Both the position numbers and the translations under genes were made by a program. A stretch of 64,000 nucleotides of DNA, taken from Cliona cf. orientalis. Taxonomy: Eukaryota > Porifera > Demospongiae > Clionaida > Clionaidae. Shown in pieces: positions 2,521-42,490 of this stretch. Positions within the stretch are counted from its first letter, which is position 1. Each line of letters begins with the position of its first letter. Where the stretch lies: contig OZ005705.1 of the NCBI GenBank assembly GCA_963930775.1, forward strand, positions 3,472,001-3,536,000, written 5' to 3'. The notes under the pieces are model-generated. The model saw only the letters and a program-made list of their open reading frames with translations. It was not told the DNA's origin and made no database searches.

Positions 2521-3720
2521 AATTACACACTAAGTAGAAAAAAAAGCATATTTATTAAATAATTAAATAAATAAATAATTAAATAATATAATTCCGGGGG
2601 GGGGGGTTTGGGAGTACTTGGGGGGACAATTTTTACATGGGCACGCAGAATGGGTCGAATTTAAACTAGAGATTTGACCAGACAGATTTTTGATTCACAC
2701 CTTAAATACAATTGAAGTTACGGCCCTTTAAAGTTTTCCCATATGTTTGTATAGGGAAACCATGCGTTTGCAATGTTTTCTGCCCACGAGCTACGTGAAA
2801 AACGGGGAATACCCATGGTGTGCATTATTTAGAAACTTTCTCACAATTGGAGTATAGGTTGTTTGCTTGCTTTGTGTACGTGGCTCTACTATGCATCCTA
2901 GGTGTATTATATGTGGTTTTCTGGACAATTTTTTGTGCTTAGTGTGCACGCTAGCTTGAAAAAAAAAAAAAATAATTAATGTTTGAGACTCTGGGAAGCT
3001 ATATATTCATGTTTACATATAAGCACGCAGAATGGATCGCACCTGGAAAGTTGATGGAACATAATTTTGATTCATACCTTAGAATTAAAGTTACGAGTTT
3101 CCCCATATGTTTGTATAGGGAAGCCATGCATTTGCAATGTTTTCCGCCCATGCACTACATGAGGGGCGTGGCTATGTGCGCACTGTAACGTGACGACCTT
3201 TACCCGCTTTGATCAAAATTGAAGTTTAGGCTGTCTGCTTGCATTGCATGGATCTTTTATGCATCCATGGCAGCTCAACTCTGTGGTGGTTTCTGGACTG
3301 TTTTTTTCTGCTTAGTGTGTCCGCTTCTTGTAGAAAAAAAAGATTTCTGCAATAAATGTTTGGGGGAATTGGGAGCACTTGGGGAGATAATTTTTATACG
3401 GGCTCGCAGAATGGATTGAAATAACGAGATTTGATGACAGTTTTGATTCACGCCTTAGAATTAAAGTTACGGCACTTTGAAGTTTCTCCATATGTTTGTA
3501 TAGGGAAGCTATGCATTTGCAATGTTTTCCGCCCACATGCTACGTGAGGGGTGGGGCCACACACGCACATAAATGTGACGACCTTTACCCAATTTGGTCA
3601 AAATTGGGAGTACAGGCTGCCTCCTTGCATTGTGTGGCTCTACTATGCATCCAGATAGACTATGTGGTGGTTTCCGGACATTTTTTTGTCTGCTAAGTGT
3701 GTGGCCCCCTTGAAAAACAA
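2521..3720 (-). repeat. Three head-to-tail copies of a MITE
   Basis: Copies at about 2521-2960, 2961-3335 and 3336-3720. Each has ACACACTAAGTAG followed by an A-run at one end, a run of CTTAGTGTGT at the other, and the shared core CCCATATGTTTGTATAGGGA followed by GCAATGTTTTCCGCCCA. Inverted relative to these are the copies at 13230-13655, 29432-30610 and 35585-42490. No coding capacity. The short ORFs here arise because each copy reads through in the same frame. Confidence 0.8.
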
Positions 3721-3959
3721 AGACGAGCTGCTTATTGCATTGTAGTATAAAACTTGAAGGATGAAGTAGGGATGGCAGTGCTAAACAATACACGAACAAG
3801 ATTTGTAGGGATAACGTATCATATCCATTGTACATCCCTACGCTTCATAATTAAATATCATACACTTCTGATGCAGTATGCAAGGCATTGCTATATATTT
3901 TGATATAAATCTATAATGCCCTCTCATAAATATTTTCATCCTCTCCCTAGTCCTAATCC

Positions 3960-4130
3960 CTGTACTCAACACACTTGTCCAGTGTTGGTTGGTCCCTTTT
4001 GCTTGGACCACTTCTTTTCAGTCATCATTTTTTGTGTCTGCCTGTCAGCTTTGGAACAGCCTTCCTAATCATGTGATATCTCGTGCTTCACCTTCAGTTT
4101 TATTTAAGTCATCCTTGTTGCAATTGCCTT
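3960..4130 (+). pseudogene. LINE reverse transcriptase C-terminal fragment
   Basis: One plus-strand frame reads SSFFVSACQLWNSLPNHVIS, then SPSVLFKSSLLQLP. This is the usual end of non-LTR retrotransposon ORF2 proteins, where a basic segment is followed by xxWNSLP and then a short helix. It is 5'-truncated, as most LINE copies are. The family cannot be named from so short a piece. Confidence 0.6.
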
Positions 4131-4296
4131 CCTTTATCAATTAATTACATTTATTCCTTTATTTTCGCTTTTAATCCCATGCTCTGTTTATGTTCTTTCT
4201 ACGTTCACTTTTTTTTTTTTTTGTGGTCAGCCTTTATTATTAGCATTCAGTTGCTATCTGGCTGTTCCTTGCTTTGTTGCAAAGAAGTCATAGAGA

Positions 4297-5052
4297 AATT
4301 ACACACTAAGGAAAAAAAAAGATTTCTTTGCAGTAAATAATGTTTGGAGGGATTGGGAGCACTTGGGGAGATAATTTTTATGTGGGCACGCAGAATGGGT
4401 CGAAACACGAAATTTGACATGAGAAAATTATGATTGACGCCTTAGAATTAAAGTTACGGCCCTTTGAAGTATCCCCATATGTTTGTATAGGAAGCCATGC
4501 ATTTGCAATGTTTGCCCATAAAAAAAATTACAGGCGCACGGGGTACGTTGATGACCCTTTACTGAATATTGTGTACGTGGCTATTTGGATGCCTGCTTGC
4601 ATTGTATGGCTCTACTATGCATCCAGCTCGATTGTGTGTTGGTTTTCGGACCATTTTTTTCTGCTTAGTGTGTGGTCTCCTTGAAAAATTACACACTAAA
4701 TAGAAAAAAAAAAGATTTCCATTATTGGGACTCTGGTGGTTGGGACCATAAGTTTTGTATGGGCACGCAGAATGGCTCAAATTGCGAACTTTGATCGAGA
4801 GATTTTTTGATTCACGCCCTAGAATTAAAATTATGATTCTTTGAAGTTTGTATAGGAAGCCATTCACTTGCAGTGTTGGCCAAAAAAATTTTACGGGCGC
4901 GCAGGGTACATTGACGACCCTTTACCGAACATTGTGCATATTGCTATTTGGGTGCCTGCTTGCATTGTATAGCTCTACTATGCATCCAGCTTGACTGTGT
5001 GGTGGTTTTCGGACCATTTTTTTTCTGCTTAGTGTGTGGTCCCCTTGAAAAA
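4297..5052 (-). repeat. Two tandem MITE copies
   Basis: Units 4297-4686 and 4687-5052 belong to the ACACACTAAG family seen at 2521-3720 and lie in the same orientation. They carry the CATATGTTTGTATAGGAAGC core and end in CTTAGTGTGTGGTC, then CCTTGAAAAA. The second unit lacks part of the core. Confidence 0.75.
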
Positions 5053-8871: not shown

Positions 8872-9810
8872 TCAGTTCAAAGATAGAGTCTGAGATAGGG
8901 TTGCTAATCTTTCTCTTGGAATTCGTACATACAACAAATACGCTGCACTTTCCCATCTTCCCAGTGTCCTGATCGTTGAGTCCTCTATTCCCCTTGCAGC
9001 AGCTGTGGACGCAGCTCCAATTCTGAAACTGTGCCCTGAGTATTTTGTTGCGTCTATTCCAGCTTGTGTTAAAATAGTTTTAACTTATGACACAAATAAC
9101 TCCCTTGTAAGTGGTCTCCCATCTTTCATCCTAAAGAATGGCCCTGGTTGTCCTCATCGTGCTGCCAGATAAGCAGTTAAGGCTGCCACTGGACACAGGT
9201 CGTTATCAGTTTTTCCCACATAAATTGAGATACCATTCCTAAAAGGGTCAGTTTTGGATGCCTTAATAGTGATTTGAGCGATTGTTGGCACATCCATTCT
9301 GTCTACTGTCACATCTCCAAAACTCAAATGGGCTGCTGGATTGTAGCTAGTTGCTGTTGGGACGACTATCTCCCCCGAGCGCAAGAAGCCAAAGAAACAA
9401 GTGCAACATGCAGCCCACAGCATAATATTATCAAAGTTTGACCTCTCCCTTTCCAATACAACTCTCATTTTCCTTAAAATAGATGGGATCATTGGTAGCC
9501 TAACTCTCACATTTTCCTGTCCCTTTTTTGCTTGATCTAGCTTTACCCCCTGAGTACATACTCCAATTTTGGCAAAGATTGTACAAATGGATCTCCAGAA
9601 CCTGACATAATTTGCATATGCCTTAATGCAGATAAGTATGATTTAATAGTTGTATGCTTCAGCCCTTGGTCAGCTATAGATGCTGCAAATTTACACAGCG
9701 TGTCCTCCACAACTGGTAAGGGATCATAATTACTCTGAGTACAAAAATGAATATACTTAGTTTTTCCAGATTTGTAGGTCTTTTAGGTGGACGGAGCCAG
9801 TGATTGAGTC
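8872..9810 (-). pseudogene. Tyrosine recombinase (integrase) of the DIRS-like element
   Basis: Catalytic core of a phage-integrase-type YR that would join the circular cDNA to the genome. In order: N-terminal helices with TIKSYLSALRHMQ, the first catalytic Arg in CFFGFLRSGEIV, a Lys-bearing beta turn in IKASKTDPFRNG, then box II with GHSFRIGAASTAAARG, the GRWES motif and the nucleophile in AAYLLYVR. So Arg, His-x-x-Arg, Trp and Tyr are all present. The frame is broken: a TGA follows LTAYLAAR at about 9154, and another frame change lies near 9095 before the HSFR part. The stop after ATLSQTLSLN at 8872-8874 is the natural end. The residues survive but the protein cannot be made as it stands. 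Confidence 0.85.
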
Positions 9811-11580
9811 AGATAATATTCGACCATTTGATCCAACCTGCTACTGCCCATCCTTGGAGAGTCAGCAGACCTTCCACTACTTTGGATGGAAGAGGAGTTA
9901 ATTGGTGCTGGCAAGGCTGAAGGAATTAGCTGCAAGAAAACAGGAAGTTCATTACGGGACAATGCCTCTGCTGGCTGGTTGTTTATCCCTGGAATGTGCT
10001 TTGCAACAATAGAAAAATCATGCCTTGCTTCCAAGAAGAAGAGACATCGTAACATGTGGGCCATACACCTTTCTTTACAATACCCAGAAGATAATACTGA
10101 TACAACTGCCATGTTATCACAGTTGAATTGAATTCTTTGTTCCCTCCGTCCAGCACCCCATACTGCTGCTGCCACAATTGGCAGTAGTTCCTTTGCTGCA
10201 ATGCATGCATCCTTCAAACCAGGGTAGTCCTCCCACCTCAGTTGGAACCACTTATTTTCCAGATAGGCCCCACACCCCCACGAGCCAGATGCATCACTCC
10301 ACACTTGCCTAACTTCCTGTTGTACTTTAATCATGGACATTCCATTCCATTGGTGAAGGAATGTCTTCCACCATTCCAAATCTGCCCTAAACTCTGCATT
10401 GAGCCGAACATGGTGGTAGCTCTTTTTTGCATGGCTTGTTGCCGTAAACATCGCTCGCAGGAAACGCCTTCGTGGTCTAACCACTTGACATGCATGGTAC
10501 AGATGTCCAACAAGGGATTGTACCTCTACCTTTTTCTCTGACCGTCTCCCATACCAGGCATCCACTATTTGAGATATGGTATCTATTTTCCTGGCTGGCA
10601 AATGCAGTATCATCTCTCTTGTGTCAATTTCAATTCCTAGAATCTCCAGTTACATGCATGGTTGGTCCATCCAATTTTTCAGGTGCAACTGGAGTACCTA
10701 CTTCCTCGCACACCTTTATGGCTGCGCCCATGCCATCAGCGCATTCTTTGGTTCCCGGCCTTCCCACTATCACAAAATCGTCCAGATAGTGGTCGACAAA
10801 TTCTACCCCTCGTTCCCTGATTATCCACTGCAGTGCATCTGCAACTGCATTAAATACTTTAGGGGCTGACCGTAAGCCAAAAGACAATGTTGCATCTCAT
10901 AATTGGTCCTCCCAGAGCATGCCTAACAAGTGCCGGTCATCTGGATGCACTGGTACAATTCTGAAGGCAGATTGTATATCCAGCTTCCTGAGGAGAGCTC
11001 CTTTCCCTCCACACTTTATCACATTCTCCACAATGTCATCGACTGTTATGTACTTTAATGAGCACATAGGCCTGTCTATGCCGTCGTTCACACTCTCTGC
11101 TTCTGGGGACGACAGGTCGACTATCAATCTCCATTTGCCAGGTTGGCTCTTAGGGATTACTCCAAATGGGCTTATTTGTATGTTCCCACCAAAGGACTGT
11201 GGATTGAATGGGCCCAATATTCGGCCAAGCTCCAATTCCTTCGATAGATATTGTTCCACCACTGATGGATTATCTTGTGCTGACCGCAGGTTTCTTTTGG
11301 AAGGAGTGCATCTGTTGCTCCTATCATATCCAATTCTGAATCCTTTCCGTATCCCTTGAAGAAGCCATCTCACAAATTCTCTATCTGGATGCTTTTCCAG
11401 TGCTCTCTCTCACTGTGCTTCTCTTAAAGGAGTCGTAATTGACCCTAACCGTCTATCTACTATTCTTGCTGTATAAGGGATGCACTTCTCCATCTGTAGC
11501 AAGTCATTCAAATAGTTGTATCTAGTATTTGCACCTGGCTGTCTATTTCTGTGCTCCGTATTAGCCTCCTCCATCATCTG
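9783..11580 (-). pseudogene. Reverse transcriptase-RNase H of the DIRS-like element
   Basis: The RT begins near 11560 with LLQMEKCIPYTARIVDRRLG and continues with GIRKGFRIGYDRSN and SAQDNPSVVEQYLSKE. Conserved blocks: WRLIVDLSSPE, KLDIQSAFRIVPVHPDDR (motif A), SFGLRSAPKVFNAVADAL (motif B) and FVDHYLDDFVIVG (YLDD catalytic pair). An in-frame TGA sits at 10897-10899 between DQL and DATLSFG. A frameshift near 10640 separates RT from RNase H. The RNase H part has VWSDASGSWGCGAYL, AAKELLPIVAA and FNCDNMAVV. The usual NxxADALSR reads NQPAEALSR, an Asp to Glu change at a catalytic position. Confidence 0.88.
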
Positions 11581-13229
11581 CCATTCTGCTTCAAATAATT
11601 CATATTGTATACCTGCAATCGTAGTCATTAATATTATTATTCTCCGATAATAATTATTAATTACCTTTAAGAACATTTCAGCAGTAATATGAATAATATG
11701 TTAATCAACAACTTTGCTCAGCTAGATGCTCTCCTATGCGGCTTGTGTCCAATTCCAATTCCTATAATATACTTAGTTATTCTTTTTTCTGGGTTGAACT
11801 TTGAGGGGGTGTCGGCCCCGATGCCCCGCCTCCTGGTTCCATATGTATCTTATTTCTAAAGGAGGGGTTTCCAGCTTTCCCACTTTTTCAGCCTTTTTGC
11901 TGGCACTGGACCACAGGGTGATCTCCACATTCTGAACGGTGGTGTCGGAATCTACAATTATCTCCATACTGGCATTGGCGTCCACTATTGTAATCCCACC
12001 AGGGTTTTAAGGATCGGCGCTTCACCTCCTCACTCTTGGGGGCATCCCAGAACCGTTTCATCTTGCAGCCGGTTGCACTATGACCCGTATTACCACAGAG
12101 TGAGCAAATGGCCATTATCTTTGCCCGGCCTGTAAAGATCTTGTTGTATAAGTGTGGATCAATTTCACTCTACTTCCTATTGCCAGTAGTAGCAGCTTTA
12201 TCACGATATGCTTCATAGTATGTCTGCCAAGCAGGATCTTCAAACTCAATCTGGGCCCTCATTATTGTGATCATATAGGCCATCATGTCTCCAATAATTT
12301 CTGGGTGTCTTTTCGCCAGAACTGCCACATAGACCCCAAAGCATCGCAGCCATGTACTGATGTCTTCAATTTGTCTGTTTTTTGCTCTGGCTACTTTGAA
12401 ACCTGGGCCAAGGATGTAGTTCTGGGTTTCTTGCTCTTGCTTTATGCTTTCCAATGGGACCACTGTATGTAATTCACTTAAGGTACCATTAAATTGCGTG
12501 GGCGTGAGGTGGGGGATATGACACCTAAACCACATCAAAGTCATTAGTGAGGTGCATGTTGTGTAACCACGCCCTTTTAATTGCACAGGTCTCAGGGGTG
12601 TGGCTGCTACAGCCGGAAGTGTTCATTTAATATCCTCCATGGACCGGAAGCCGAGCCGGAAGGGAGGGGCCAGACCACGCCCAAAACAGCACCACCCTGT
12701 GCCTCAAGGACCACCATTCTCAATCAAGTGCCGACTGGCCACCGGATGTCCACCGGAAGCCCACAATCAATCCCAATTAAAACACACAGCTTCCTCAAGG
12801 CCAAAACACACACAAACACACTTGGAGGCCGTTCTGCCACACCGCCCACACAAGAGCTCACCTCATTTCCTGTGTGGGCGGAGTAACAACACGTCATCGC
12901 AACCACATCTGCTTCAAACCATCGTCAGCTTCCGTCCAGCCGTACGGTCCCCTCGATCGCACCGGCGTACAGTGCCTCATTAACAGACATAGCCTCACCT
13001 TTGACCTCCTGCCACGCCCCCAAAGCCTCCTTGCGGGGTTCAAAGGTCACCACCGCTTCCGGGACACGCCCACCTATCGCTGAGGCCAAGTCCCAGGCGC
13101 CAATATCCAAGCACTGGCCCGTGAAGCCACGCCCAATCGGAAGCAATAAAACCTGCATTAACGCACACGCACACACTCCACACAGTGCCAGGAACACGCC
13201 CACATGCTTAATTAGGCCTAATAAGGCTT

Positions 13230-13655
13230 TTTTTTTTTTTTTCAAGGCGACCAGAACACTAAGCAGAAAAAAAATTGTTCGAAAACCGCCATATAGTTGA
13301 GCTGGATGCATAGTAGAGCCATACAATGCAAGCAGGCAGCCTATACATCAATTTTGATCAAAGTGGGTAATGGTCGTCACGTTAATGTGCGCGCGTGGCC
13401 CCGCCCCTCATGTAGCGCGTGGGCGGAAAACATTGCAAATGCATGGCTTCCTATACAAACATATGGGGTAACTTCAAAGGGCCGTAACTTTAATTCTAAG
13501 GCGTGAATCAAAATTCCCCAGGATCAAATCTCTAGTTTCGACCCATTCTGCGTGCCCATGTAAAAATTATCCCCCCAAGTGCTCCCAAATCCCCCATGAA
13601 TTAGATTATTTATTTAAATTTGCTTTTTTTTTCTACTTAGTGTATAATTTTTTTT
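13230..13655 (+). mobile_element. MITE of the ACACACTAAG family inside gag
   Basis: Bounded by a T-run then AACACTAAGCAG with an A-run on the left, and TTTTTTCTACTTAGTGTATAA on the right. The core carries CCATATAGTT, GGGCGGAAAACATTGCAAAT and CAAACATATGGGG. It lies opposite in orientation to the copies at 2521-5052. Non-coding. Confidence 0.8.
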
Positions 13656-18539: not shown

Positions 18540-19426
18540 ACAAGGGGTGGTCACTACCATAGGTCGCGTGTTACCATTTGTGACCGCGATCAAGATGAGA
18601 TCAAACGATCAAATGGGTCTCCAGGGGAGAATCAAACGATCAAGGCACCTTGCGATTGTCGATCAAGACTAGTCTCGCAAGCCACACCCTTCGTAGGGGT
18701 GGGGTCTGGAGGAGGAACTGGCTAGCTAGGCTAGGCTACCGCAAACTTGATAGATCTAATGCGCATGCACATTTCAGCCCCACCCTCACGTATAAATAAC
18801 TGTTCCGACCGCGGACCGCAGGTATTCTTAGCGCTAGCGGGTGATTCTGTAGCCTCGTACCCCCGTACGAGACTAGTGATTCTACACTGTACCAATACAA
18901 GTGTGATCGCAGCGTCAGCCATGGAGAGAGTCGCCGTCATCCTCCTCTCTAGATGACCAAGGGTGGCAGAATGCTTGTCTCTTGTCTTGATGAGGACGAG
19001 TACTGCATTAGAATCATGGATGTTTCCATGCTCTCTTCGAAGAAACACTGGTTTCACTGGTTGTAAAAACTTGTAGCCTTGGTAAAACTTTATTCCAACA
19101 ACGTTAGCTGTGAAGGAGCAATGAAGGCGGCATTTAATCTCTGCCATGGTTGCGATGCAGTAGCACATGTGTACGTACTTGTATGCCTATATAGTATACC
19201 GGTATATGATTTACGTACTATTGCAGCGCAGACCTAGCGATTGTATATCGAGTGGGCGGGGCCTGGGTGGAGCGCTGACCGTTCAACCGCTGATCGAGAC
19301 AAAAATCAAGAAATCAAGCTGCGTTTGTCAAGAGAATCAAGCGATCAAAGCCGTTTTTGCAGATCAAAACATCTTGATCGCGGTCACAAATGGCAACACG
19401 TGACCTATGGTAGTGACCACCCCTTG
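18540..19426 (-). mobile_element. TTAA-flanked element carrying a HIRAN gene
   Basis: Ends are inverted copies over about 60 bp: ACAAGGGGTGGTCACTACCA then TAGGTCGCGTGTTACCATTT on the left, and the inverse ending ACCACCCCTTG on the right. TTAA lies at both outer edges (18536-18539, 19427-19430), suggesting piggyBac-like insertion. Subterminal GATCAA units recur near both ends. The only gene is the HIRAN-like ORF; no transposase is present, so it would need one from elsewhere. Confidence 0.75.
18731..19147 (-). CDS. HIRAN-domain-like protein
   Basis: A 138-residue intact ORF if the second Met (MAEIKCRL) is the start; an upstream Met at 19168 gives 145 residues. The N-terminal half fits a HIRAN domain: TANVVGIKFYQG, then VKPVFLRREHGNIHDSNAVL and LGHLERRMTATLSMADAAI. 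This corresponds to the family pattern VVG, RREPxNxxDxNAV, hGYL. HIRAN domains bind DNA ends (as in HLTF) and are often fused to helicases or nucleases; here the domain stands alone. The C-terminal 60 residues are unrecognised. It sits alone between 60-bp inverted repeats, so it is cargo of a mobile element or a captured gene. Assignment is by motif only, without a profile search. Confidence 0.55.
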   Translation of the reverse strand: MAEIKCRLHCSFTANVVGIKFYQGYKFLQPVKPVFLRREHGNIHDSNAVLVLIKTRDKHSATLGHLERRMTATLSMADAAITLVLVQCRITSLVRGYEATESPASAKNTCGPRSEQLFIREGGAEMCMRIRSIKFAVA

Positions 19427-19855
19427 TTAAACAAGTGACGTAATGCACGAATTAGCTGCTGGCCGGCCGGCCACTCCATTCGCCGAGCCAGCTAGCAGCT
19501 GTCAAAAATGGAGATGTGTCAGATTGAGAGTTGTGTTCGACGCACATGTTGATGATGAAGGTAGCGTCGGATGTTTAACCTGAAAGAACTAGCAGCGACA
19601 TTGATTCCTGACAAACGATTCCGTTTTATACTAAAGGCCCGTTTACACACAGCGTTTAACTCGGATTGGGATCTGGATTAATTTAATCCGGATACGTGTG
19701 GACGCACTTAACTCAGACTGGAATCCGGATTACGTAACCCACCTCAGGATGTGGGTTGAACCTGGATTGAATCCAGATTAGGCGCCAAGCGCGTGCGTGT
19801 AAACAGCTGACTCGGATCATAAGTGGATTAAGATAGTTGTGACAGTGCTACTACC

Positions 19856-20847
19856 ATGAGTTCAACCACTGTGTCAACCTCAACAAGCTCCCGTGGCTCC
19901 CTGTGGTCTGATGAGGAAGTGAGAGCCCTGATAGCTATCTGGGGAGAGGCAAATGTGCAGGAAGAGCTGGATGGTGCTGTTAGAAATAAAGTAGTTTACC
20001 AGGACATCTCCAGGAAATTGCAAGAGCAAGGGTACAATCGAGAGTGGGAGCAGTGTAAAACAAAAATAAAAAATTTAAAAAAGGAATACAGACAAGTGAA
20101 AGACCACAATGGAGAGACAGGGAGAGGCAGAAAGACATGCAAATTCTTTAAAGAGTTAGATAGTATCCTAGGCCATAGACCACCTTCTGTTCCAGCAGCA
20201 CTTCTCGACACGGGAACTAGTAGTAGCACAGTGGAAGACAGCACTGAGGAAACACAAATAACTGGTAAGTAATGTACATTTTAGTTTTAATGTCTCACAT
20301 TTACTGAGATTATCCACAGAGGGAGATGATGTTCAAGCCGAGTCACCTATAGATAGTGCTCTGATTCCAGAGTCTGAAGGACCACCCAGCAAGAAGCGAC
20401 CTGGGGAACAAGCATGTATGTTATAGTGGAAATTTTAATATAATTTTGATGTCCCCCACCCACACCAATCCCCCCCCCCAACACACACACAAAATGATAC
20501 ATACTACTCTCTCTTTACTCCCACCCTCTCTCGATGTACACACATCAATTTCAGCTGTAAGCGTGCCTAGCAAGAAGGCAAAAATTGAGAAGAAGACCAG
20601 AGCTGAAAAGGGACTGGAGAGAGCCATGGATACATTTCCAAAGTATCAAATGGAAGCAGAGGAGCGGCATGCAAAGCAGGAGGAAGAAAGGTGGCAGAAG
20701 GAGATGGAATTTGAGGAAAAACGAAGGCTCGAAAACCAGGAGCATGAGCTCAGAATGATGGAGCTATTGGGACGCATGTTCCACGGCAGCAACCAGACCT
20801 ACGGTAGATCATACGAGTTTGATGACACATATAATCCCCGATACTAA
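19856..20847 (+). CDS. Harbinger SANT/Myb-like accessory protein, 3 exons
   Basis: Exons 19856-20264, 20320-20415 and 20555-20847 join in phase through GT-AG introns to give about 265 residues ending TYNPRY. Residues 15-100 form a trihelix-type Myb/SANT domain: LWSDEEVRALIAIWGEA, then VVYQDISRKLQEQGYNREWE and CKTKIKNLKKEYRQVKDHNG. Helix 1 Trp and the Trp of REWEQC are typical. A Lys-rich segment (PSKKAKIEKKTRAEKG) and a long Glu/Arg-rich coiled coil follow. In characterised Harbinger elements this protein imports the transposase into the nucleus and binds the subterminal repeats. All three exons are open, so it may still be made. Confidence 0.88.
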
Positions 20848-20966
20848 CAGAAAGAACCCCATAAACATTTATAATGTATTAACCAAGCACGTGTATGTAT
20901 AACATTATTATGATAGCAGCAGCTGCTGATATTCTAGTATACATGTACATTTAGCTACGGTATAGT

Positions 20967-22263
20967 CTACTGGCTAAAGTGGGCCATAAAGGCGTTTCGA
21001 GTGTCTGTTGCACTTTGTACAGGATTACTGGTGCTATTGCAACTTGAAGTGCTCTCAAACTCCTGGCTGTCCACTCCATTCAACCAATCGTCATCAAATG
21101 CATCACCATGTACTTCACATATGTTATGCAATACACAACATGCAGCCACCAGTTCAGACACATCCCTCACATCAATATCTAATCTTTTCAGCAAGCATCT
21201 CCACCTTCCCTTCAGTCGACCGTAACTGTGCTCCACCACTACTCGAGCCCTACTTAGACGATAATTAAATACTTTTTGTTCACAAGATAGTCGTCCATTA
21301 TCAGGGAAAGCTTTCATTAGCCATTTTAGTAGCGGATACGCTGGATCACCAATGAGGACCAATGGAATATCTTTGCCAGAGATTGATTCCTTCAGATCAG
21401 GAAATAGAGTGCTACTCTGCCCTCTGTGGTACAGACTAGAATTTGAAAATACACGTGCGTCATGCACTCGACCCGGCCACCCAACATATAATATTATGTC
21501 AATAAATCGACCGGCATGATCAACAGTCCCTTGAAGGATGATGGAATGCCACCCCTTTCTGTTATAATAATCTGCAGGGCATTCTTGGGGGGAAATTATT
21601 GGAATATGAGTCCCATCCACAGCTCCAACACACTGGGGAAAACCGAGTTCCGTTTTAAAAGCTTCAACATTCTCTTGTAGAGCCGCACCTACAGGTATCT
21701 TGACGTACTTCGGTAGAAGACACTCAACAATAGCAGTACACACTTCCTTTGTCACTATACAGACAGCCGACTTGGACACACCGAAGAGATGCCCAATCGC
21801 TCTATAGTCAGAACCAGTGGATAAAAACCACAAAGTTATGGCCACTCGCCGTTCTGTTGAAATTGCCTTCCTCATAATAGTATCACTCTTGGTAATAGAC
21901 GAACGCAGTTGGTCACAGAGATACGCAAAGGTATGTATCTTTTGACATACGGAAGTTTTGCAGCCAGTCTTGGGGAGTAAAACAGCTCACTATATGCTCC
22001 CACCAATGTGAGCTCCTTTCTTTACACCACACACTCCTTATAGTTGCTCCATGTCCATGCAGACCAAATGAAAGCCCTGCCAACATCATCACGAACACTA
22101 AGCGCTGCCGAGCCTGCCACTTGGCAAAAGCTCGGTATCGTTTCATACGCTGTCTCCTTCTCCACCTCATTCGCTCAACCTCTCGCCGCCTCCTCGCTAC
22201 AAAACAGGCCCTCACAGCAGCAACAACGGCAACCTTATCCATCACACCAACTCGTTTACACAA
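20967..22263 (-). pseudogene. Harbinger DDE transposase (one frameshift)
   Basis: DDE_Tnp_4-type nuclease. The C-terminal 302 residues (21875-20967) are open. The three catalytic acids are visible in VGAVDGTHIPII, LVLIGDPAYPLLKW and VVVEHSYGRLKGRWRCL. An HTH segment lies at VAITLWFLSTGSDYRAIGHL and FGVSKSAVCIV. The N-terminal part is in another frame at 22263-21913 (MSKDTYLC after an Arg-rich region). It is separated by a shift near 21920 that looks like a small insertion of about 4 bp before FAYLCDQL-like sequence. If translation starts at the Met at 21875 the core domain is intact, but the family normally has the N-terminal extension. Confidence 0.85.
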
Positions 22264-22763
22264 ACTACAAGTGGTTACTAGGCAATCCGCACACCAGTGC
22301 GCATGCTCACAACCTACAGTTGCAGTCTTATACCCCGATCTTACCTTTTGACCTTGTCTTGCTTCAAGGGAGCTCTTCGCTTTCGTCTTCCTCGCTTCTT
22401 TGCCTTCTTATTCCAAATACAGAGCACCATAGCATGGTACAGGTCAAGGGTTAATCCACTTTGTAATCCACTTACGCGTTTACACACAATGTGGTTTCGT
22501 GGTCGCGCTAGGTATGCGTGTGGACAGCTTTAATCCGGATTCCAATCTAGATCAAACTAATCCAGATTAGTATGTGTAAACGGGGCTTAAGGTTGCGAGC
22601 AATCAATCTAATTTTGCTGAATTCGCACTGCTCTCGTTCACATACGCATGCGCACACGTAGTCATTACGTCATAAAAATACGGTTATTTAAATATTGGCG
22701 AGTTTTAATTTGGTGATTTTCTTCAAAATTCGCCAAATTGCCAAAGTTTCCCGCTATATGGTA

Positions 22764-25200: not shown

Positions 25201-27950
25201 CAGGGGCGGCACAGAAGTTATAAAAGTGATACGGCACAAGTTCATGTGTAATTGCAAGTACTAGAATATACAATCGACACACATAGAAAATTATATTATT
25301 ATTATACTACTTCTGTTGTGGTTTTCCAAATACTCGTATACGTTCACTGTTAGATAAAATAAACTCGTTCATTGCTTCTTTTATATCAATTTTTCTGTCT
25401 TGATGGATGTCAATCATCATTAAATGATTAAGCCTTTCTTGCTTCATTGTTGTGCGAAGGTACGTTTTTACATGTCTTAGTGAAGAGAATGATCGTTCTG
25501 CTGTCGCAGAGGTAGCCGGCATGACTAATAGCAACTGCAAAAGCCTAGATGTCTGTGGAAAAATGCTCTTATATAAGACGATCTTCTCCTTAAATTCCTT
25601 GTATGCAAAAGATTTTTCACAGTAGACATTCTTCACCATTTTCAGTTCCGTTAATAGGTCCGATTCTACCAAATCTTCCTTGAAATGCTCGACTATTACT
25701 CCGACATCTCTGGTAGAAACGCTCTTCCCAATGGCAGCATTCTCCAAAACATTTTCTACCTTGGCATAGAAGGTAAAAGAAGATGACTCTAATCGGCGCT
25801 CAATTTCCCCAATAAGTGTGTCAAGGACTTCAAAATAGTACCTATGATACATATCTTCTGGTGTTGCATCAAAATGTTGTACTACTGGCTTCATCAATGC
25901 ACTTTGGTGCTCTCCTCCTGCGTGGAAGCACTGGTTCTTCACAGTCAAACTCATCAGCCTTAGCTAGCAATTCTTCCCAAATCTTGTCGAAATGGCTGTC
26001 ACTTCTCTGCTCTCTAAGGCTGGCAAGAGTAACAGCAGCAAGCCTTTTGGCCTCCATAGCACACATAGTCTTCTTTTGAAGAGCTTTGCTTAGTGTGTCT
26101 GTGATGCTAAACAACTTTTCTCCAATCACTACTCCAAACAGGAAGGAAAAGTTTTCCATGGTAACCATAATCCCTCTGGCCTGGGAAGTAGCTTCTGAAT
26201 TTCCCCTGTATTCTTCAATTATCTCTTCCAAGACCGAATGGATCACTGAATAATTCAAAATAACAGACCTTAGTGATTCAGCTCGCACTGTCCAGCGAGT
26301 AGGACACAGTGGCCTTATTCCCATAGTTTCAGGTGACAGGTCTGCTTTTAGCTTCAATAGCATGGCTTTCTTTTTTGCACTGTACTTAAACACTTTAGCC
26401 ATCTCAAGAACAGTGTCAAATGTGTCAGCCATGACCTTTACAGAACGAGAAGTGTCCTGTACAGCAAGATTGAGGGAATGTCCCATACAATGAACATAGA
26501 GAGCTCTTGGTTCCTCCTGCTGGATTCGTGCTGCAACACCAGAACGTCGACCAGACATGTTGCTAGCACCATCGTAGCACTGACCACGGCAACGTTCCAA
26601 AGGAAGAGAAAGGCGGACCAAGACATCCTTGATAAGTTGTGTCAAATTACCAGCATCCGTTCTGTCAGTAGCGTAGAGGCCTATACAGTCTTCAAAGACT
26701 TCAAATGTGTGTGGGCACACATATCTTATGCATACTGTGAGCTGTGGATAAAGAGCAGTGCATTGAAACCACAATGATAATTAGATTTGTAATAGCCATG
26801 TACCTGTTCAATCAGGGAAATATCCACTGTCTCATCAGCACTCACACAAAACCACATGCTAGTGCAAATATCCTTTAGTATAGATATCTGTATCTGAAGA
26901 GCCATGATTCTCAGTATCTCATTTTGTACTTCATGTGAAGTATAAGATCTCCTTTGTTGTAGCCATTTTTTCAGCCCATCAGAATCAGCTCCCCGAAGCT
27001 TCATGAGTTGATAAAAATTTCCCCTCTCTTCCTGGTGACCACGTAATGGTAGTGCCTGTCGAGCTAGATACTCAATTGAGGTAAAAATCTTGCGTAGACA
27101 AGTCCTTGCCTCAACTTGTTCTGCTGCCAATCGCCTTTGAAGTTGAAGATCAATACCAATTCCTCTCTCACGATGCTCCCATTTCAATATGGCTTCCCTG
27201 TGGCAACTACTTTTGCGGTGAAGCTCGAATGCTCTTGTTGCGTCTTTCCAGTTATTAAAACCAGAAGTGATGAAGGCAGACTCCTGATTCTTGGACAAGG
27301 TCAGTTGGTGCAAAACATACACATTTCGACATATAAAACAGTACGCTCTGTTATTCTTAGTTTCCCAGTGAAGCCAGTCAGACCAAAGCTTGTTATCAAA
27401 CCAACTGGGTTTAAAAGAGCGATATTCAGGCTTCTTCTGGCCAAATTGCCTCTTGGGGAAGACTCCAGAGCGTGGTTGATGTGGCTTGTCCAACAGTTGA
27501 ATCTCCATTTCTTCATCACTACGCCCGGTAGTTGAGCTACCTGAGGCACCACTAGGTTGATCGGCAATCTCCAATACGGATGTGTGGTCAATTTCAACCT
27601 CAGGCGGGGGAGTATCAGCGATGTCATCGTCTGATAATCGGAATTCAGAGTCGCTGGAAACGTTATCATTTTCAACTGTAGTACTTGTTCTAGCACAAAA
27701 TGCTTCTTTTAGCGATTGCTGACGACAATTCGACATGTCCTACTTCTGTCACATGGCACCTAGCTAGGTCGCGCTCAATGTAGCGAGCAGGTATACTAAT
27801 GCGCATGCTCAACATCTAGTTGCCACACCTACTCAATAAAGTGGGTGGGGTCCAGCTCATCACAGAGGCAAAAAGTGGTCCTGCGTTGCGCACAGCTCCT
27901 GAAAGTGGTTCGGCGTTTGCCGGACCAGCCGGACCGTCTATGCCGCCCTT
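25201..27950 (-). mobile_element. hAT transposon, ZMYM1-like
   Basis: Ends CAGGGGCGGCACAGA (25201) and, inverted, AGGGCGGCATAGAC (27949) form short hAT-type TIRs. Flanking octamers cacataca and tgcataca agree at six of eight positions, a worn 8-bp duplication typical of hAT. A single minus-strand transposase gene occupies most of the interior. Confidence 0.8.
25307..27736 (-). pseudogene. hAT transposase with TTF zinc finger (one frameshift)
   Basis: Exon 1 (27736-26804) starts MSNCRQQSLKEA and has an acidic N-terminus. A TTF/ZMYM-like zinc finger follows: SFKPSWFDNKLWSDWLHWET, AYCFICRNVY, then FNNWKDATRAFELHRKSSCH. Next is the DUF4371 part with the first acid in WFCVSADETVDIS. A 62-bp GT-AG intron (26742-26803) joins SLIEQ to LTVCIRYV. 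Exon 2 carries the second acid in CYDGASNMSGRRSGV, TRWTVRAESL, and the C-terminal dimerisation block ATSATAERSFSSLRHVKTYL with the catalytic Glu. A frameshift near 25875-25880 splits exon 2; otherwise it is open over about 730 residues, so decay is recent. Host ZMYM1 genes share this fold, but the TIRs mark it as a transposon. Confidence 0.88.
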
Positions 27951-29431: not shown

Positions 29432-30610
29432 CAAGCTAGCGTGCACACTAAGCACTAGGCAGAAAAAATTGTCCAGAAAACCACATAATACACCTAGGAT
29501 GCATAGTAGAGCCACACATGTAAAGCAAGCAAACAACCTATACTCCAATTGTGAGAAAGTTTCTAAATAACGCACACCACGGGTATTCCCCGTTTTTCAC
29601 GTACCGCGTGGGCGGAAAACATTGCAAACGCATGGCTTCCCTATACAAACATATGGGAAAACTTTAAAGGGCCGTAACTTCAATTGTATATAAGGTGAAT
29701 CTGTCTGGTCAAATCTCTAGTTTCGACCCATTGTGCGTGAAATTGTCCCACCAAGTACTCCCAAACCCCCCATGAATTAGATTATTTAATTATTTATTAT
29801 TTACTTTTTTCAAGCTAGCGTGCACACTAAACAGAAAAAAATTGTCCAGAAAACCACATAATACACCTAGGATGCACAGTAGAGCCATATATACAAAGCA
29901 AGGAAACAACCTATACTCCAATTTTGAGGAAGTTTCTAAATAATGCACACCACGGGTATTCCCCGTTTTTCACGTAGCCCGTGGGCGGAAAACATTGCAA
30001 ACGTATGGCTTCCCTATACAAACATATGGGAAAACTTTAAAGGGCCGTAACTTCAATTAATTGTATATAAGGTGTGAATCAAAAATCTGTCTGGTCAAAT
30101 CTCTAGTTTCGACCCATTGTGCGTGAAATTGTCCCACCAAGTACTCCCAAACCCCCCATGAATTAGATTATTTAATTATTTATTATTTAATTAAATATAC
30201 TTTTTTCAAGCTAGCGTGCACACTAAACAGAAAAAAATTGTCCAGAAAACCACATAATACACCTAGGATGCACAGTAGAGCCATACAAAGCAAGGAAACA
30301 ACCTATACTCCAATTTTGAGGAAGTTTCTAAATAATGCACACCACGGGTATTCCCCGTTTTTTCACGTAGCCCGTGGGCGGAAAACATTGCAAACGTATG
30401 GCTTCCCTATACAAACATATGGGAAAACTTTAAAAGGCTGTAACTTTTAATTCTAAGGCATGAATCGATCAAACTTCGCCTGCGTCAAATGTCTAGTTTT
30501 GACCCATTCTGCATGCCCATGTAAAAATTATCCCCCCAAGTGCTCCCAAACCCTTCATGAATTAGATTATTTATTGAAATATGATTTTTTTTCTACTTAG
30601 TGTGTAATCT
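29432..30610 (+). repeat. Three head-to-tail copies of the ACACACTAAG MITE
   Basis: Units 29432-29810, 29811-30206 and 30207-30610. Each starts CAAGCTAGCGTGCACACTAA then CAGAAAAAA(A)TTGTCCAG, and carries TATTCCCCGTTTTTCACGTA, GTGGGCGGAAAACATTGCAA and TATACAAACATATGGG. Units 2 and 3 are nearly identical, and unit 3 alone has the CTACTTAGTGTGTAA terminus. The array is in the opposite orientation to 2521-3720. Confidence 0.82.
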
Positions 30611-35584: not shown

Positions 35585-36172
35585 AAGCAAGCCTACACAC
35601 ATAAGCAGAAAAAAAAATTGTCCGGAAACCACCATATAAATTTGGATGCACAGTAGAACCATACAATACAAGAAGGCAGCCTCAACTTCAATTTTGTCAA
35701 AAGTTGGTAAAGATCGTCACGTTTTTGTGAGTGCGAAGCCCCGCCCCTCACGTAGCGCATGGGTGGAAAACATTGCAAATGCATGGCTTCTCTATACAAA
35801 CATATGGGGAAACTTCAAAGGGCCGTAACTTTAATTCTAAGGTGTGAATCAAAATTTCGCTTCTAGATATGACCCATTCTGCATGCTCATATCAATAATT
35901 GGTCGTGAATGTTTTCCCAGAGTCTCAAACATTACTTTACATTTCTACTTAGTGTGTAATAAGGAGACCACACACTAAGCAGAAAAAAAAAAAAATTGTC
36001 CAAAAACCACCACATAGCTGGATGCATAGTAGAGCCATACAATGTAAGCAGGCAGCCAATACATCAATTTTGACCAAAGTGCGTAATGGACGTGACATTG
36101 ATGTGCGCATGTGGCCCCGCCCCTCACGTAGCGCGTGGGCAGAAAACATTGCAAATGCATGGCTTCCTATAC
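35585..36172 (+). repeat. ACACACTAAG MITE copies, second one split by the P element
   Basis: First unit 35585-35965, ending TTCTACTTAGTGTGTAAT. Second unit starts at about 35966 and is cut at 36172 by the P-type transposon, resuming at 42306. The join is inside the conserved TTCC-TATACAAACAT block, so the interruption point is exact. Confidence 0.85.
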
Positions 36173-36289
36173 CATAGATAATAGAGCGGGGAGGAGGGAT
36201 TGGAAATGCCACGTAGTTACGTTACTGAATCCGCGACACGGTCACGTGATCAGAAGCGGTCCGTCCGTATACTGTGTACTGTACACATC

Positions 36290-37302
36290 ATGGCGAGCGG
36301 TTTGGTTAGGGGTTGTCTTTCTTCCGTTCTTACAGATTCTACGTTCAGCGGTCGCTCACAACGACAAATAAAATGTCTGCTCTCTGAAGGAAATAACATC
36401 GATACCTATGATGAATTTGCTCAGAAACTTATGGATGTTCTAGAGCGGGTATACGCCAGTGCTTCAAGCACCTGTACTGGGAAGATAACACTAAAAGAGC
36501 GGCTGTGGAGGCAGTTTCATGCCGTACGACTCACAAAACTGTGAAATTTGGACAAGTTTCTTGGCTACTTTGAATCTAACCTCGATCCATTAGTACAACA
36601 GTATGTGAACCAGGAAGTACAATTAAATCCCACTGTGGCTCTTACCCTACTTTATCTACAAAGGTAACATCTATGACAAGCGAAGAGGAAAACATTGTGC
36701 GCTATGCATCTGGTTATGTTCCATATTCTTTAATGAAGAGATACAAGAAACACGTGACAGAAAAGTCAGTGTCTTTTGTGGAATGTTTGAGTAGCATGGC
36801 TGTCAATGGAGAGGAGGAATCCCTTTTGGAATATACTAATGAGTGGGTGAGCAGGGTGAATAGAGGAGGCTTGTTTGAGGTGAACGACACAACATTTGCA
36901 TTATTTCAAGAGATAGAGCTCTGCGTTCGAGATCAACTTACCTCAGTACTCGCTTCTTGCACTACACAACCAGATCAAAACGATAAACTTATCAAAGCAG
37001 CACAGGAGGATATCGATGTGCAGCTCTATTGGTCGCTGTTGTCAATTGATCTTGATACTTCAACTCTTTCCGATGAACTTTTAGAAGACATAGAACTTTG
37101 GCTCAGTATACGTGGATTTTCGATTGCTGGACAATGGATGGAAGTGTATAAACACAAGAAGTCAAAGACAACGAAGAAGACCAAGTCACTGCGCAAGACA
37201 TTAAAAAGGCAGGGTGAGAGTAGCACATCAAAGAAGATGAAAGAAATATCACTGAAAAAGACACTCGAGGAAAGTAGAAGTCAATCTGATAACAATCATT
37301 GA
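36290..37302 (+). pseudogene. Companion protein of the P-type element
   Basis: Starts near the left TIR with MASGLVRGCLSSVLTDST and runs in one frame to a TGA after RLTKL (36542-36544), then on as NLDKFLGYFESNLDPLVQQY. A one-base shift near 36663 leads into the second open stretch: MTSEEENIVRYASGYVPYSL, FVECLSSMAVNGEEESLLEY, NRGGLFEVNDTTFALFQEIE, LWLSIRGFSIAGQWMEVYKH, then a Lys/Arg-rich tail. Without the two lesions it would be about 340 residues. From memory, similar uncharacterised proteins occur in cnidarian and sponge genomes, and the RYASGYVPYSL segment faintly recalls the C-terminal segment of some transposases. Function unknown; a DNA-binding or transposition-accessory role is inferred from position and the basic tail. 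Confidence 0.6.
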
Positions 37303-37697
37303 TAACATTACACTTGCAATGCAAGTAATAATAATTATTATTATTATCATCTTGTTATGCCATTAGTGTTAACTCTTGCTCAACCTTTTACGTTTTGGAA
37401 GAGGGTTATCATCCAGGTGCAATGGCTCAGATTTTCTCTTCCCACTACAGTTACCTCTGAGAGATTCAAGGGCAGCTGAACCTTGTACTCATAAACTCAG
37501 TGTTATCAACAAATTCTTTGACTGATGGGTTGTCATTTCTGCCCCCCTTGTAACGCTGCTTTTCAAAACAAGCTTCAAGTGGGTCCTGACACAATTTCTC
37601 ACTTAGCAAAAACTGAACACCTGATACCGCAAAAGTAGAGTTATCACTTTAACAAATGAGAGTACTGCATAAATAATATATGCAGATCATAAATTTA

Positions 37698-38103
37698 CAG
37701 TGTTCTCGCTAAAGCGCGGTTGAGCGGCGCCCCGCCGCGCTATAGAACGCGATAAGGGGTGGGGCTCTAATGTCATGATCCTGCATACAAGCAATAGCAA
37801 TAGTACTGGAGTACATAGAGCATTTGCTAGACAGTGCTATGTGTGCAGTACAAGTACACAACCACAAATACCTAGCTGTACTAACCACGAGTAGTGGGCT
37901 TGCACAGGCTTGTGTAAACTAGCTGCCAACTACACATGAGCTGCTTGCTACTGCTGTGTATATAGCCAAGCTGCAGACAGTATGATTTTAACTACATCTA
38001 TATACTTGATTTGTAATAATAGTTAAAGGTAAGAATCTTAGTATACACCCCCCCCCCCCCCCCCCCCCCCCCGCTCTATAAAAAAGTTCTGGGTAGAACA
38101 CTG
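37698..38103. mobile_element. MITE inside a P-transposase intron
   Basis: Ends CAGTGTTCTCGC and, inverted, CAGTGTTCTACCC. AATTTA is present at both edges (37692-37697, 38104-38109). It contains a GCGCCCCGCCGCGC patch and an uninterrupted run of 25 C (38048-38072). About 700 bp away, at 38812-38838, is a run of 27 G. Non-coding. Confidence 0.72.
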
Positions 38104-40771
38104 AATTTAATAGTATCATAATAATTGACTAGTCATACCTGTTACCCTCAGTCCTTCCAGAGTTTCCCGTGATAATTGCATCATTTGCTTCTGACCTGGT
38201 GTGAACCCTTGTCGTCCTTTCACACTCTCATTTCAGCGATCCAAGTAACCCAGGAAGTCATCTTTTAGCCACTATAGTGTTGTGTGTAATAATACTCCAT
38301 ACTGAGATTCATATGATATGATGTATGTTCACGAACCTTTAACCTGGGATCATCCGGACTTCTGTAGGGTCTTAAATCTGGTTTTCGTTGCTGCACACAA
38401 GCTGATGTGCAGCGTACATTGAGGCAATCGAAGAATTTATTAAACATGCGTACAAAGGTCTCTGTTTCCTTCGTCTCTTCTAAGCCATAGAAATCTAGGC
38501 CATTTGCCACAGAGGTACTTAGTACCTTTGAGAAATAGAATAAATTAACAAGTAATAAATTAACAAGTGTATCTTCATAATAATATTATTATTGTTACCT
38601 GAGCCGCCAAATTGACTTTCATTCTTGAATATGAGTTCAAGTGCAGGTGCTCCTTTTTCAACTTGGGAATTAAACGGAGGCCAGAACCAAAGCGACTTTT
38701 GTCGTACAAGGAAGTAAGATGAGTCCAGCTGATATGCTTTCCATCCTTCTGTACATCATTGCATACAAAATAATTAGTCAGTTATCATAGGCAGACTGAG
38801 GAGTTTTTTTTGGGGGGGGGGGGGGGGGGGGGGGGGGGAGATGGGGATGGGATGGGCGGCACTACATATAGAATTTCTTCAACCTTCCTCTATGTTTGGA
38901 ATTAAGTTAACATATTTCAGGCTGGTTGGGCGGAGGTGTGCCCCTGTTACCACACCTAGATTATCATTCATGCTGTACCTACGTCACTAACCCAGAGAGC
39001 TCTTGAGTGACTGTGGCCAAAAGAATTCGACCAACAATTCCGAGTTGTCTTGATGAGATGTGGCACATCTGACATGAAGTAAATTTCTCTGCCGTCTGGA
39101 CTGTATGGGTTTCTGGTTTTGTAAGTAACCGTTCCTGTTTGTTTTGACGTGCTGTGCATCTTAAAGAATTTTTCTGTTGGGAGATGCTCCATCACATGTA
39201 ATAACCATCACGTTAAAGCCACTCTCCTCCAAATTTCTCACACCATCCCACACGAGTGGAAATAACTCCTCACCTGTGGCTCCTTTTGTGGGGAAATGGG
39301 CATAGGGAAACTCAAGTCCCGAGAAAATTCCCCTGACCATGAACACCAGCATATGTGAAGCAACCTTGTCAGCTGTGTCATTGCTTTCACCTTTGCACTG
39401 TCGTTCAAAGTCATCAAGCGTGTTAGACACGTCACCTAAATCAGTAAAACCAAGTAACGAGCAGGAGTGTTTAAGTCTTCTCGAATTTTCATCTCATCAA
39501 AGCTGAGAACCACATACTTATCCTTCTTATCTTTAATGTTTGCTTCTTCAATAAGCTGTGCATTCACTGTGGTATGGAAACCTACATCTCCTTTATTCCA
39601 GTGGGAGTAATCGAATAATGTTCTTTCAGATGGTAAAGTAAGAACACCGGTACTCCTCAATGCATGGTAGGCACCTGTTGACTTGAACTTCAGATGCAGG
39701 CACCACTTTATGAGTGCAAAATGCCAGCGAATTTGTCGGTGATCTTTCGTCTGCATTGCTTCAAGCTGAGATTCCCAAAATATGCGTCGGAATGAATCAT
39801 CTGAATGCTGATCTCTGACTTTATTGGTCATCTCATTCATTATGGACTGTAGATCATGATGCATACCTTCGTCCAATTGAACTCCATCTTTCTCTGTCAA
39901 CTTGTCCAATATTCCTTTCAGCCGTATCCGAACGAACTTTCAGCTTGCGGTAGCGCTGTTGTCTTTGAGGGGGTTCAGATACCTTAGGTTGGTAAGACTA
40001 GTAGATGCAGTATTTCTGCGTGGTGAGGTATTGATCTTCTTCTTCCAGCGATGAAATGATTTTCTGAGCATTTCTCTGTATTGGACACACTTTGCACACT
40101 TGGTATCATTGGTGAGAATTCCACAAGATTTATGCCTAACAGTCTGGGTGTATAAATCACCATTTAATTGGACTAGCACAGCTGAGTCAATAGTAGCTAC
40201 AACCTCTTTATTAATGGAAGTGAGTTTCCCCTTCTTTGATATCACCATTTCTACGAATTTCTTGTCTGGATGGCCAGGGCACACCCGGCAGCTATCAAGC
40301 TTGGCTACTAACACTTTGAGCGATTCATTATTGAGCTGATGTGGGACATCCGATAAAGGGGCACATTTGGTGCTGTTCACTTGGTGCCCATGAACAAGTG
40401 CCGTCCAAGATAAATCTTCGCTGATGGTGAGGCTGTGTGTTACAACACATGCTGCAGAATCAGACTCAATCTGGGGAAACTTAAGCTTGCATAAATGCAA
40501 GGACTCGGAGCTGATATTACTGATCCACTGACTCGGTGGTTGCAAGGAACTTGTGAGAGTTTCGATAGTAGTTATTGTGGTGTTGGGACTATTCTCCTGT
40601 AATAAATTAAAGCAGGTGATATGCATGGTTGATTTAATCTTTATTTATATACCTGCTGTCTAGCTTGGGGTTGTTGCTGGGGTTGGGGCTGGGTCTGGGT
40701 ACATGGAATCTGAATCTTGGGAGGTCGACCAGGTGGTCTCTTCTTTAGATGCTGTGTTTTTCGCTCATAAT

Positions 40772-41721
40772 CAGTCTACACTAAGGTGACCGGAAGTCCA
40801 TACATTTTATCGGAGAATGGAATTTTGTACTACGTATATGGGGGTTAATGATATGCAAGCCGCGCACGTGGCGGTAAAAATTATGGCTACATTATTCAGC
40901 TTGTAACTTTTGTTGTGAACAAGCTATGGCCTTGTCCAAGGTGACATTGAAGAGAGCACAAAAAGCGCTTTCTAACAGTATCAAGATCATCAAGAAGTGT
41001 AGTCTTTACTAGTGTCAATGGCGGCCACGATGGTCAACCCGCGCCTGGCTAGGACAGACTTTGAATTTTGTGCGAATCAGTAATTGGCAGGCTGTACCTC
41101 TAGGCCCTGGTTTACAAATAGGTAAGTATCAGAACTGTCTTTAAGTACAATCTGGAGAGTACTGGACTTACCTGGTGAACACCAAGCACACTTTAAAGGA
41201 ACAAATAATTCATGACTTTAGATAGATCTCCATTCAGAGTACAACATAGCTAAGCTATCAAACACAAGTCAGGCTAAACTTTAGTACTAGTACTAGCTAC
41301 AGTCCAAGCGAAAACTCTTCGTATCAAATAGATTCTTCGTAGTGAGCCGTCTTGTCTGCTGACTATGGACAAAGTGCTGTCTGGAATGAACTTTGAATTT
41401 TGTGCACTTCAGTAATGGACATCCTAGAATGAAAACAAGGGTAGATTTATAATCCATACTATATCCTTAACCTGCAGCAGTGGCATGGAATCGATACGGT
41501 GTAAATTGTCTGAGAATGAAGCCTTGGAAATCTGGAAAAAATTCACTGAACAGCCTGGCTTCTATGTGTAGCACTGGGGCCTGCGCCCTTTGTCTATAGA
41601 AGTATATGGGGAGTAGCCTGCATGAGGTAACCACATCTACAATGTGTGACACATGGTGCGCCAGCTATGAATATTTTACAACTTCCTTTTTCTGATAAAT
41701 CAGGCACCTTAGTGTAGACTG
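40772..41721. mobile_element. 950-bp TIR element inserted in a transposase exon
   Basis: Ends CAGTCTACACTAAGGTG on both sides (inverted), flanked by the direct duplication TAAT (40768-40771, 41722-41725). The open frame of the P transposase continues exactly across the gap when the element and one TAAT are removed (SRRVKNYERKT). Inside, a block of about 35 bp around CTTTGAATTTTGTGC occurs twice (near 41068 and 41388). No recognisable protein. Confidence 0.85.
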
Positions 41722-42305
41722 TAATTCTTCACTCTACGAGACAATGAGAACTTTCTTCCCATATTTGCTGCTTGCAGTTGCACACTAGATAAGGTTGGAG
41801 TGAAGTTGGGATCATCACTGGGTAATACAAATCCATCACACTCAAGCTAAAAGTACACAAAATGTGACCCAACATCAATAATATGATAGGATATTATCAA
41901 AATTTTTTATTGTTGAATTTCAGAATTAACAGCTGCATTGCATTGGTTGTATTAATAACATAGCAGAAATGTATTTAGTAAACCAATGTTACTTACTAGA
42001 GTCAGGAAAAGTACACAAAGAATTATTGCTTACCGGATTTAGAGAGGTTGTGCCAGAAAGTATGCAGAAACGAAAGCTCTCAAAAATTTTCTCCCGTCAA
42101 ATAGCTGTTGTGGCAGTTGCAGACCTGTGTGCACAGAACAGCGGCGCAGAACCTAGTAATCGCCTTGCCGGTGTCATTTCAGCACTCGCAGATTCATAGT
42201 ACCGCCAAAATGGTTGTGGGCGTGTCCGTGTCGCGGATTCAGTAACGGAAGTGCATATCCGTGCACGCGCGTTTCCAATCCCTCCTCCCCCCTCTATTAT
42301 CTATG

Positions 42306-42490
42306 CTATACAAACATGGGGTAACTTCAAAGGGCTGTAACTTTAATTTTAAGATGTGAATCAAAATTCCCCGCCGTCAAATCTCTAGTTTTGACCCACT
42401 CTGTAAAAAGTATTTCCCCAAGTGCTCCCAAACCCCCCAAAATATTAATTAAGTATTTAAGTTCCTTTTTTTTTCTTCTTAGTATGTAAT
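42306..42490 (+). repeat. Second half of the split MITE
   Basis: Starts CTATACAAACATGGGG, continuing the MITE cut at 36172, and ends TTCTTCTTAGTATGTAATTT. Bases 42491-42999 have two overlapping plus-strand ORFs (42538-42819, 42690-42947) with no domain; I regard them as chance. Confidence 0.8.

Follow-up and report, generated by a model that had tools for sequence, protein, structure and literature searches.

In Drosophila, the P element carries four open reading frames within 2.9 kb, which are spliced to a transposase and a 66-kDa variant (PMC7776569, available in part). P elements also encode repressors, and those described in the same source derive from the transposase gene or its deletion forms. 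The spacing to the 10-bp transposase binding site differs between the two ends, with 9 bp at the left (5′) end and 21 bp at the right (3′) end, a difference that has been compared with the V(D)J signals of 12 and 23 bp (PMC7776569). As far as the available text goes, the THAP finger of the P transposase binds internal sites adjoining the terminal inverted repeats (TIRs). Here, we describe a P-type element in the sponge Cliona cf. orientalis (assembly GCA_963930775.1, contig OZ005705.1). It lies in a stretch of 64,000 nucleotides (positions 3,472,001 to 3,536,000 of the forward strand), hereafter called the window, from whose first letter all coordinates are counted. An original prediction for this DNA had placed two facing genes between one pair of TIRs, a P-like transposase gene and a separate companion gene. 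The analysis supports a single element of 6,133 bp (36173–42305), the sole copy within the window. We consider it probable that this is a degenerate two-gene transposon of the P superfamily, in which the companion is an integral part of the transposon family, belonging to a P lineage that lacks the THAP domain.

The left TIR (36173–36206, plus strand) starts with CATAG and the right TIR occupies 42272–42305 on the minus strand; both are 34 bp long and mismatch at 1/34 positions. No further copies were found in the window at up to nine substitutions, and the prediction of one 34-bp TIR pair enclosing the element was correct. Internal to the TIRs, a second inverted repeat (36217–36246 and 42221–42250) shows 93% identity and includes an exact 22-mer at both ends, whereas in 2000 shuffles of the inner 105 bp at each end no shared word was longer than 13 bp. 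At the companion end, this internal repeat (36220–36241, plus strand) is separated from the TIR by a gap of 13 bp (36207–36219); at the transposase end (42226–42247, minus strand), the gap measures 24 bp (42248–42271).

The insertion site belongs to a host repeat, about 400 bp long, that is dispersed and partly tandem, with copies at 2600–5050, 13244–13650, 29444–30608 and 35595–35856. These copies provide nine uninterrupted paralogous sites, all of which (9/9) carry a single CTATAC, while the element is flanked by one CTATAC on each side (36167–36172 and 42306–42311). Based on these empty sites, we assign a 6-bp target-site duplication (TSD) to this insertion, although a 2-bp change at a junction may have occurred. 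A TSD of 8 bp was also considered and rejected; it could hold only with mismatches between the flanks or with ends that are not equal, and 6 bp matches exactly.

Judged by its domain and structure matches, the minus-strand gene is a transposase of the P superfamily. It is broken and extends over several exons from 37369 to 42177, with both outer limits predicted. We used as query a read-through composite over several of these exons, comprising about 890 residues. The composite matched three Pfam families in the expected order: PF21787 (E 2e-22) and PF21788 (E 1.3e-18) passed the cut-off, while PF21789 scored under its curated cut-off (E 6.7e-4). When the minus-strand pieces were searched separately, one RNase H piece scored above the cut-off (E 2.2e-15) and the remaining pieces fell below it. 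The solved Drosophila P transposase structure 6p5a matches the composite in two stretches (E 2e-17), the first of which, holding the first catalytic Asp, has an independent E of just 0.059. In this alignment, the DDE triad is represented by FDEM opposite FDEM, CDGASPNRK opposite SDLGTGNQK and QDPLE opposite QDIVE, and the D(2)H motif by SDVPH opposite SDTPH; the roles of these residues in the P transposase are described in the accessible part of PMC8230255.

Along the minus strand, the N-terminal part of the RNase H domain with the first two catalytic Asp residues (FDEM and CDGASPNRK) lies at 39170–39588 (PF21787, 6p5a). The GTP-binding insertion domain follows over several exons at 38409–39060 (PF21788). 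The C-terminal part of RNase H, where QDPLE falls opposite the catalytic Glu in the P transposase, is located at 37511–37597 (PF21789 below cut-off, 6p5a). A further piece at 40653–40771, read as an exon and without domain match, contains the motif RPPGRPPK, which we take to be AT-hook-like. ATG codons are present at the transposase end at 50, 109 and 129 bp from the element end. The Pfam-matched part ends at 37511 and its frame reaches a stop at 37466–37468; reading past the last frame break would place the stop at 37369–37371. We prefer the latter position, as the residues in between presumably resemble the tails of related proteins. The gene carries stops near 42.10 and 38.23 kb, a 950-bp nested element in the exon after the first of these stops, and frame breaks near 39.96, 39.9, 39.45, 39.17 and 37.49 kb. 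This copy is dead, and the disabling lesions, present in both genes, were not part of the original prediction.

The plus-strand companion gene is coding, as its open frame and codon usage indicate, and comprises about 321 codons in its predicted spliced form. Exon 1 (36290–36616) begins with the ATG at 36290, 118 bp from the element end, and contains an in-frame TGA at 36542–36544, the one stop included in the 321 codons of the spliced reading. The candidate intron (36617–36663) is 47 bp long, has GT-AG borders and keeps the frame; it represents a preference over seven other frame-keeping GT-AG pairs. Exon 2 (36664–37302) ends with the stop at 37302 and encodes a Lys-rich tail, with 17 Lys or Arg residues versus 6 Asp or Glu in the last 59 positions. 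The separate plus-strand protein with a basic tail was thus predicted rightly, but its length was put at about 340 residues, somewhat above the 321 codons found.

The open part of this exon (209 codons, 36673–37302) is longer than expected by chance, as stop-free runs of at least 209 codons appeared in 0/500 shuffles of its own region. When the whole element was shuffled, 2/500 reached at least 209 codons, and the longest shuffled run, 240 codons, equalled the real stop-to-stop run. In addition, we scored codon usage with a table derived from 11 other open reading frame stretches in the window (2240 codons, companion excluded). In its claimed frame the main companion exon scored 0.158 and exceeded the best frame of all 500 random 627-nt segments of the window (maximum 0.105); in exon 1, the claimed frame ranked first (0.084). 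These scores have to be read with caution, since another frame of the main exon reached 0.101, and a transposase stretch from the training set, read in its proper frame, scored just 0.059, which does not attain the 95% point for random segments (0.072).

The two genes are arranged tail to tail. As originally predicted, they converge inside one TIR pair: the companion stop at 37302 faces the transposase stop at 37369–37371 or 37466–37468, which leaves a stop-to-stop gap of 66 bp for the preferred stop or 163 bp for the Pfam-matched frame. One alternative is a chance composite of a P element and what is left of another, unrelated transposon that had landed next to it. The window does contain several other transposons, and within the element itself there is a clear nested miniature inverted-repeat transposable element (MITE) as well as a probable one. 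However, such a nested transposon would have room for its ends in only about 48 bp to the left of the companion and in 66 to 163 bp to its right, and no TIR- or TSD-like repeats were found beside the companion: the best inverted score was 6 (reached by 500/500 shuffles) and the best direct score 7 (406/500). As a control, the same inverted-repeat scan recovered the element TIRs and the clear MITE (0/200 shuffles each) and, weakly, the probable MITE (12/200). The companion as a nested insertion was rejected on the grounds that no flanking repeats rise above chance, and a chance composite appears improbable. It is also unlikely that the companion is a passenger, acquired by this copy or its subfamily without any part in transposition. 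Such an origin would fit the single copy seen and the failure of any DNA-binding or transposon family to match the companion, and both genes bear disabling lesions, with the companion, at one stop in 321 codons, showing fewer per length than the transposase. The layout, however, is compact, with the companion starting so close to the element end and finishing near the 3′ end of the transposase gene, and there is no insertion scar. Altogether, these observations make a good case that the transposon contained the companion when it jumped. The companion is likely, on weaker evidence, also part of the whole family, given the tail-to-tail layout and the missing signature of a nested insertion.

With an integral companion, the element could work as follows. 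In a functional copy, the element would be moved by cut-and-paste through the transposase, whose gene is read from the right end. This enzyme would bind the TIR and the internal repeat as in P, on asymmetric ends composed of the 34-bp TIR, the 13- or 24-bp gap and the 22-bp repeat. The companion would be the integral second gene, read in the direction of the transposase from the left end, and might act as a helper, e.g. in end recognition or complex assembly. From the layout, it is plausible that each terminus contains a putative promoter. Of the possible functions, we infer a helper role as the most likely, since the transposase shows no visible THAP finger, the domain which in P binds the internal sites; by analogy, this would be a partner role paralleling Harbinger. 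The next most likely function is that of a regulator, which overlaps with the companion being an integral gene. Here, the companion would be an element-encoded repressor, the separate-gene counterpart of the 66-kDa protein and KP of Drosophila P. Repressors have a precedent in P elements (PMC7776569, in its accessible part), and the same internal repeat is situated upstream of both genes of the sponge element. A single binder could therefore control both, which makes a repressor a serious rival, ranking before a passenger, even though we give it rather limited credence. The repressors of P differ, however, in their relation to the transposase, whereas the companion pieces have no match to the transposase region (tblastn, E up to 1).

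Several points weigh against a two-gene P-type transposon with an integral companion. The evidence comes from one copy, within a 64-kb window, and its TSD of 6 bp compares with 8 bp in P and Pdre2 and 7 bp in Galileo. The original prediction called the transposase THAP9/P-like; the P-type catalytic core holds, but a THAP finger (C2CH) was not found in the composite with Pfam models at E up to 10, a search in which the HMMER filters discard most matches above 0.1. A degraded finger may have escaped detection, the N-terminal exon being broken and carrying a stop. The transposase stop closest to the companion is read across a frame break, and the 22-bp internal repeat is a putative transposase binding site, whereas the P spacing is measured to an established one. 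Searches of Pfam, PHROGs, NCBIfam and the PDB gave no significant match for the companion (one PDB match, E 0.91); in Pfam, this includes the Myb/SANT and YqaJ domains. No relatives were found in viral contigs with its exon as query, in prokaryote genomes or, by tblastn, in plasmids. Its proposed function thus rests on position and the basic tail. Exon 2 is modelled almost entirely as helix, but with low confidence (mean pLDDT, predicted local distance difference test, 52.8).

The same collections yielded little in other respects. An alignment including three coral-like sequences gave no companion relatives in the viral contigs either. For the transposase and the element ends, the viral contigs and prokaryote genome contigs produced one match to a 19-base pattern, in the viral contigs, which is probably due to chance. 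Since these collections consist of viruses, plasmids and prokaryotes, such negative searches say little about animals. Companion-like proteins are presumably common, and unnamed, in corals and sponges, in line with the original prediction, which placed unnamed relatives in cnidarian and sponge genomes. With its introns and its Harbinger, hAT and P-type transposons, the window has the content of a eukaryote, and a bacterial promoter scan was set aside as irrelevant.

Regarding classification, the transposase, its DDE and D(2)H residues, and the TIRs with internal inverted repeats all agree with the P superfamily, while a TSD of 8 or 7 bp was not observed. We keep the element in this superfamily because the transposase, and not the length of the TSD, defines it, and its known members already differ in this respect.

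Besides its two genes, the element contains nested or repetitive sequence. The clear nested MITE (950 bp, 40772–41721) has the TIR CAGTCTACACTAAGGTG and a 4-bp TSD, TAAT, and splits a transposase exon; its flanks, joined with a single TSD copy, form one open frame. The probable MITE lies in a transposase intron (37698–38103) with AATTTA common to its flanks, and is weak by the shuffle comparison given above. A run of 25 C is found within it (38048–38072), and a run of 27 G at 38812–38838. Elsewhere in the window, we observed a hAT-like transposase remnant (25307–27736; Dimer_Tnp_hAT, with DUF4371 below cut-off), open frames resembling reverse transcriptase and DIRS elements by eye (9783–12586), three of them without Pfam match at 1e-3, and an open frame with a HIRAN domain (18731–19168).

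P elements have been described as a transposase gene with its splice and deletion variants (PMC7776569, accessible part), and with a second, unrelated gene between the same ends the P superfamily would join the two-protein transposons. Among the open-licence papers listed, judged by titles and abstract openings, no two-gene P element was found, which is weak evidence of novelty. A companion of this kind would also open a route to the question of how THAP-less P-type transposases locate their ends. More tentatively, and with somewhat greater doubt than the placement of the companion in its own family, the element may represent a P lineage, perhaps widespread in early-branching animals, that forms a two-protein system. 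Such a system would combine a THAP-less transposase and asymmetric 13/24 ends with a convergent, helical, basic-tailed partner from the opposite terminus, a member of an undescribed family involved in end recognition, assembly or control. If true, the unequal-spacing rule of P, including its likeness to the 12/23 V(D)J signals, would extend beyond the THAP-bearing Drosophila lineage. The 13/24 gaps are close in size to the 9/21 of P and the 12/23 of V(D)J, and allow both systems to be compared with the sponge element in a concrete, testable way.

Compared with Drosophila P, the sponge element shares the transposase core recognized through 6p5a, the GTP-binding insertion and TIRs of similar length (31 bp in P, in the text available). 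The unequal gaps recall those of P, which are measured to the binding site (9/21 bp), while those of the sponge element are measured to an internal repeat of putative role (13/24 bp). The orientation differs: the short gap is located at the 5′ end of P, while the transposase end of the sponge element has the long gap. The 5′ end of P is where transcription starts. Further differences are the gene content and size given at the outset, the THAP domain and the 8-bp TSD of P (PMC7776569, in part). Zebrafish Pdre2/THAP9 also belongs to the P superfamily and resembles the sponge element in its CATA termini and subterminal inverted repeats, but has a 13-bp TIR, 12-bp subterminal repeats and an 8-bp TSD, and the accessible text does not mention a second gene (PMC10983969). 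Galileo, which is in the P superfamily too, departs like the sponge element from an 8-bp TSD, having one of 7 bp; its TIRs are very long, and a second gene is again not mentioned in the available part of the source (PMC3573991). Two genes per element are known from PIF/Harbinger and ISL2EU, to which the sponge element is comparable by analogy. These belong to other transposase superfamilies, and their second genes encode Myb/SANT or YqaJ proteins, unlike the companion with no known domain (PMC4482050, available in part). The window itself contains a Harbinger element at about 19715–22548, in which a Myb/SANT frame (19856–20272, plus strand) faces an open DDE_Tnp_4 transposase (20967–21875, minus strand). 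This pair shows the same convergent two-gene layout as the P-type element.

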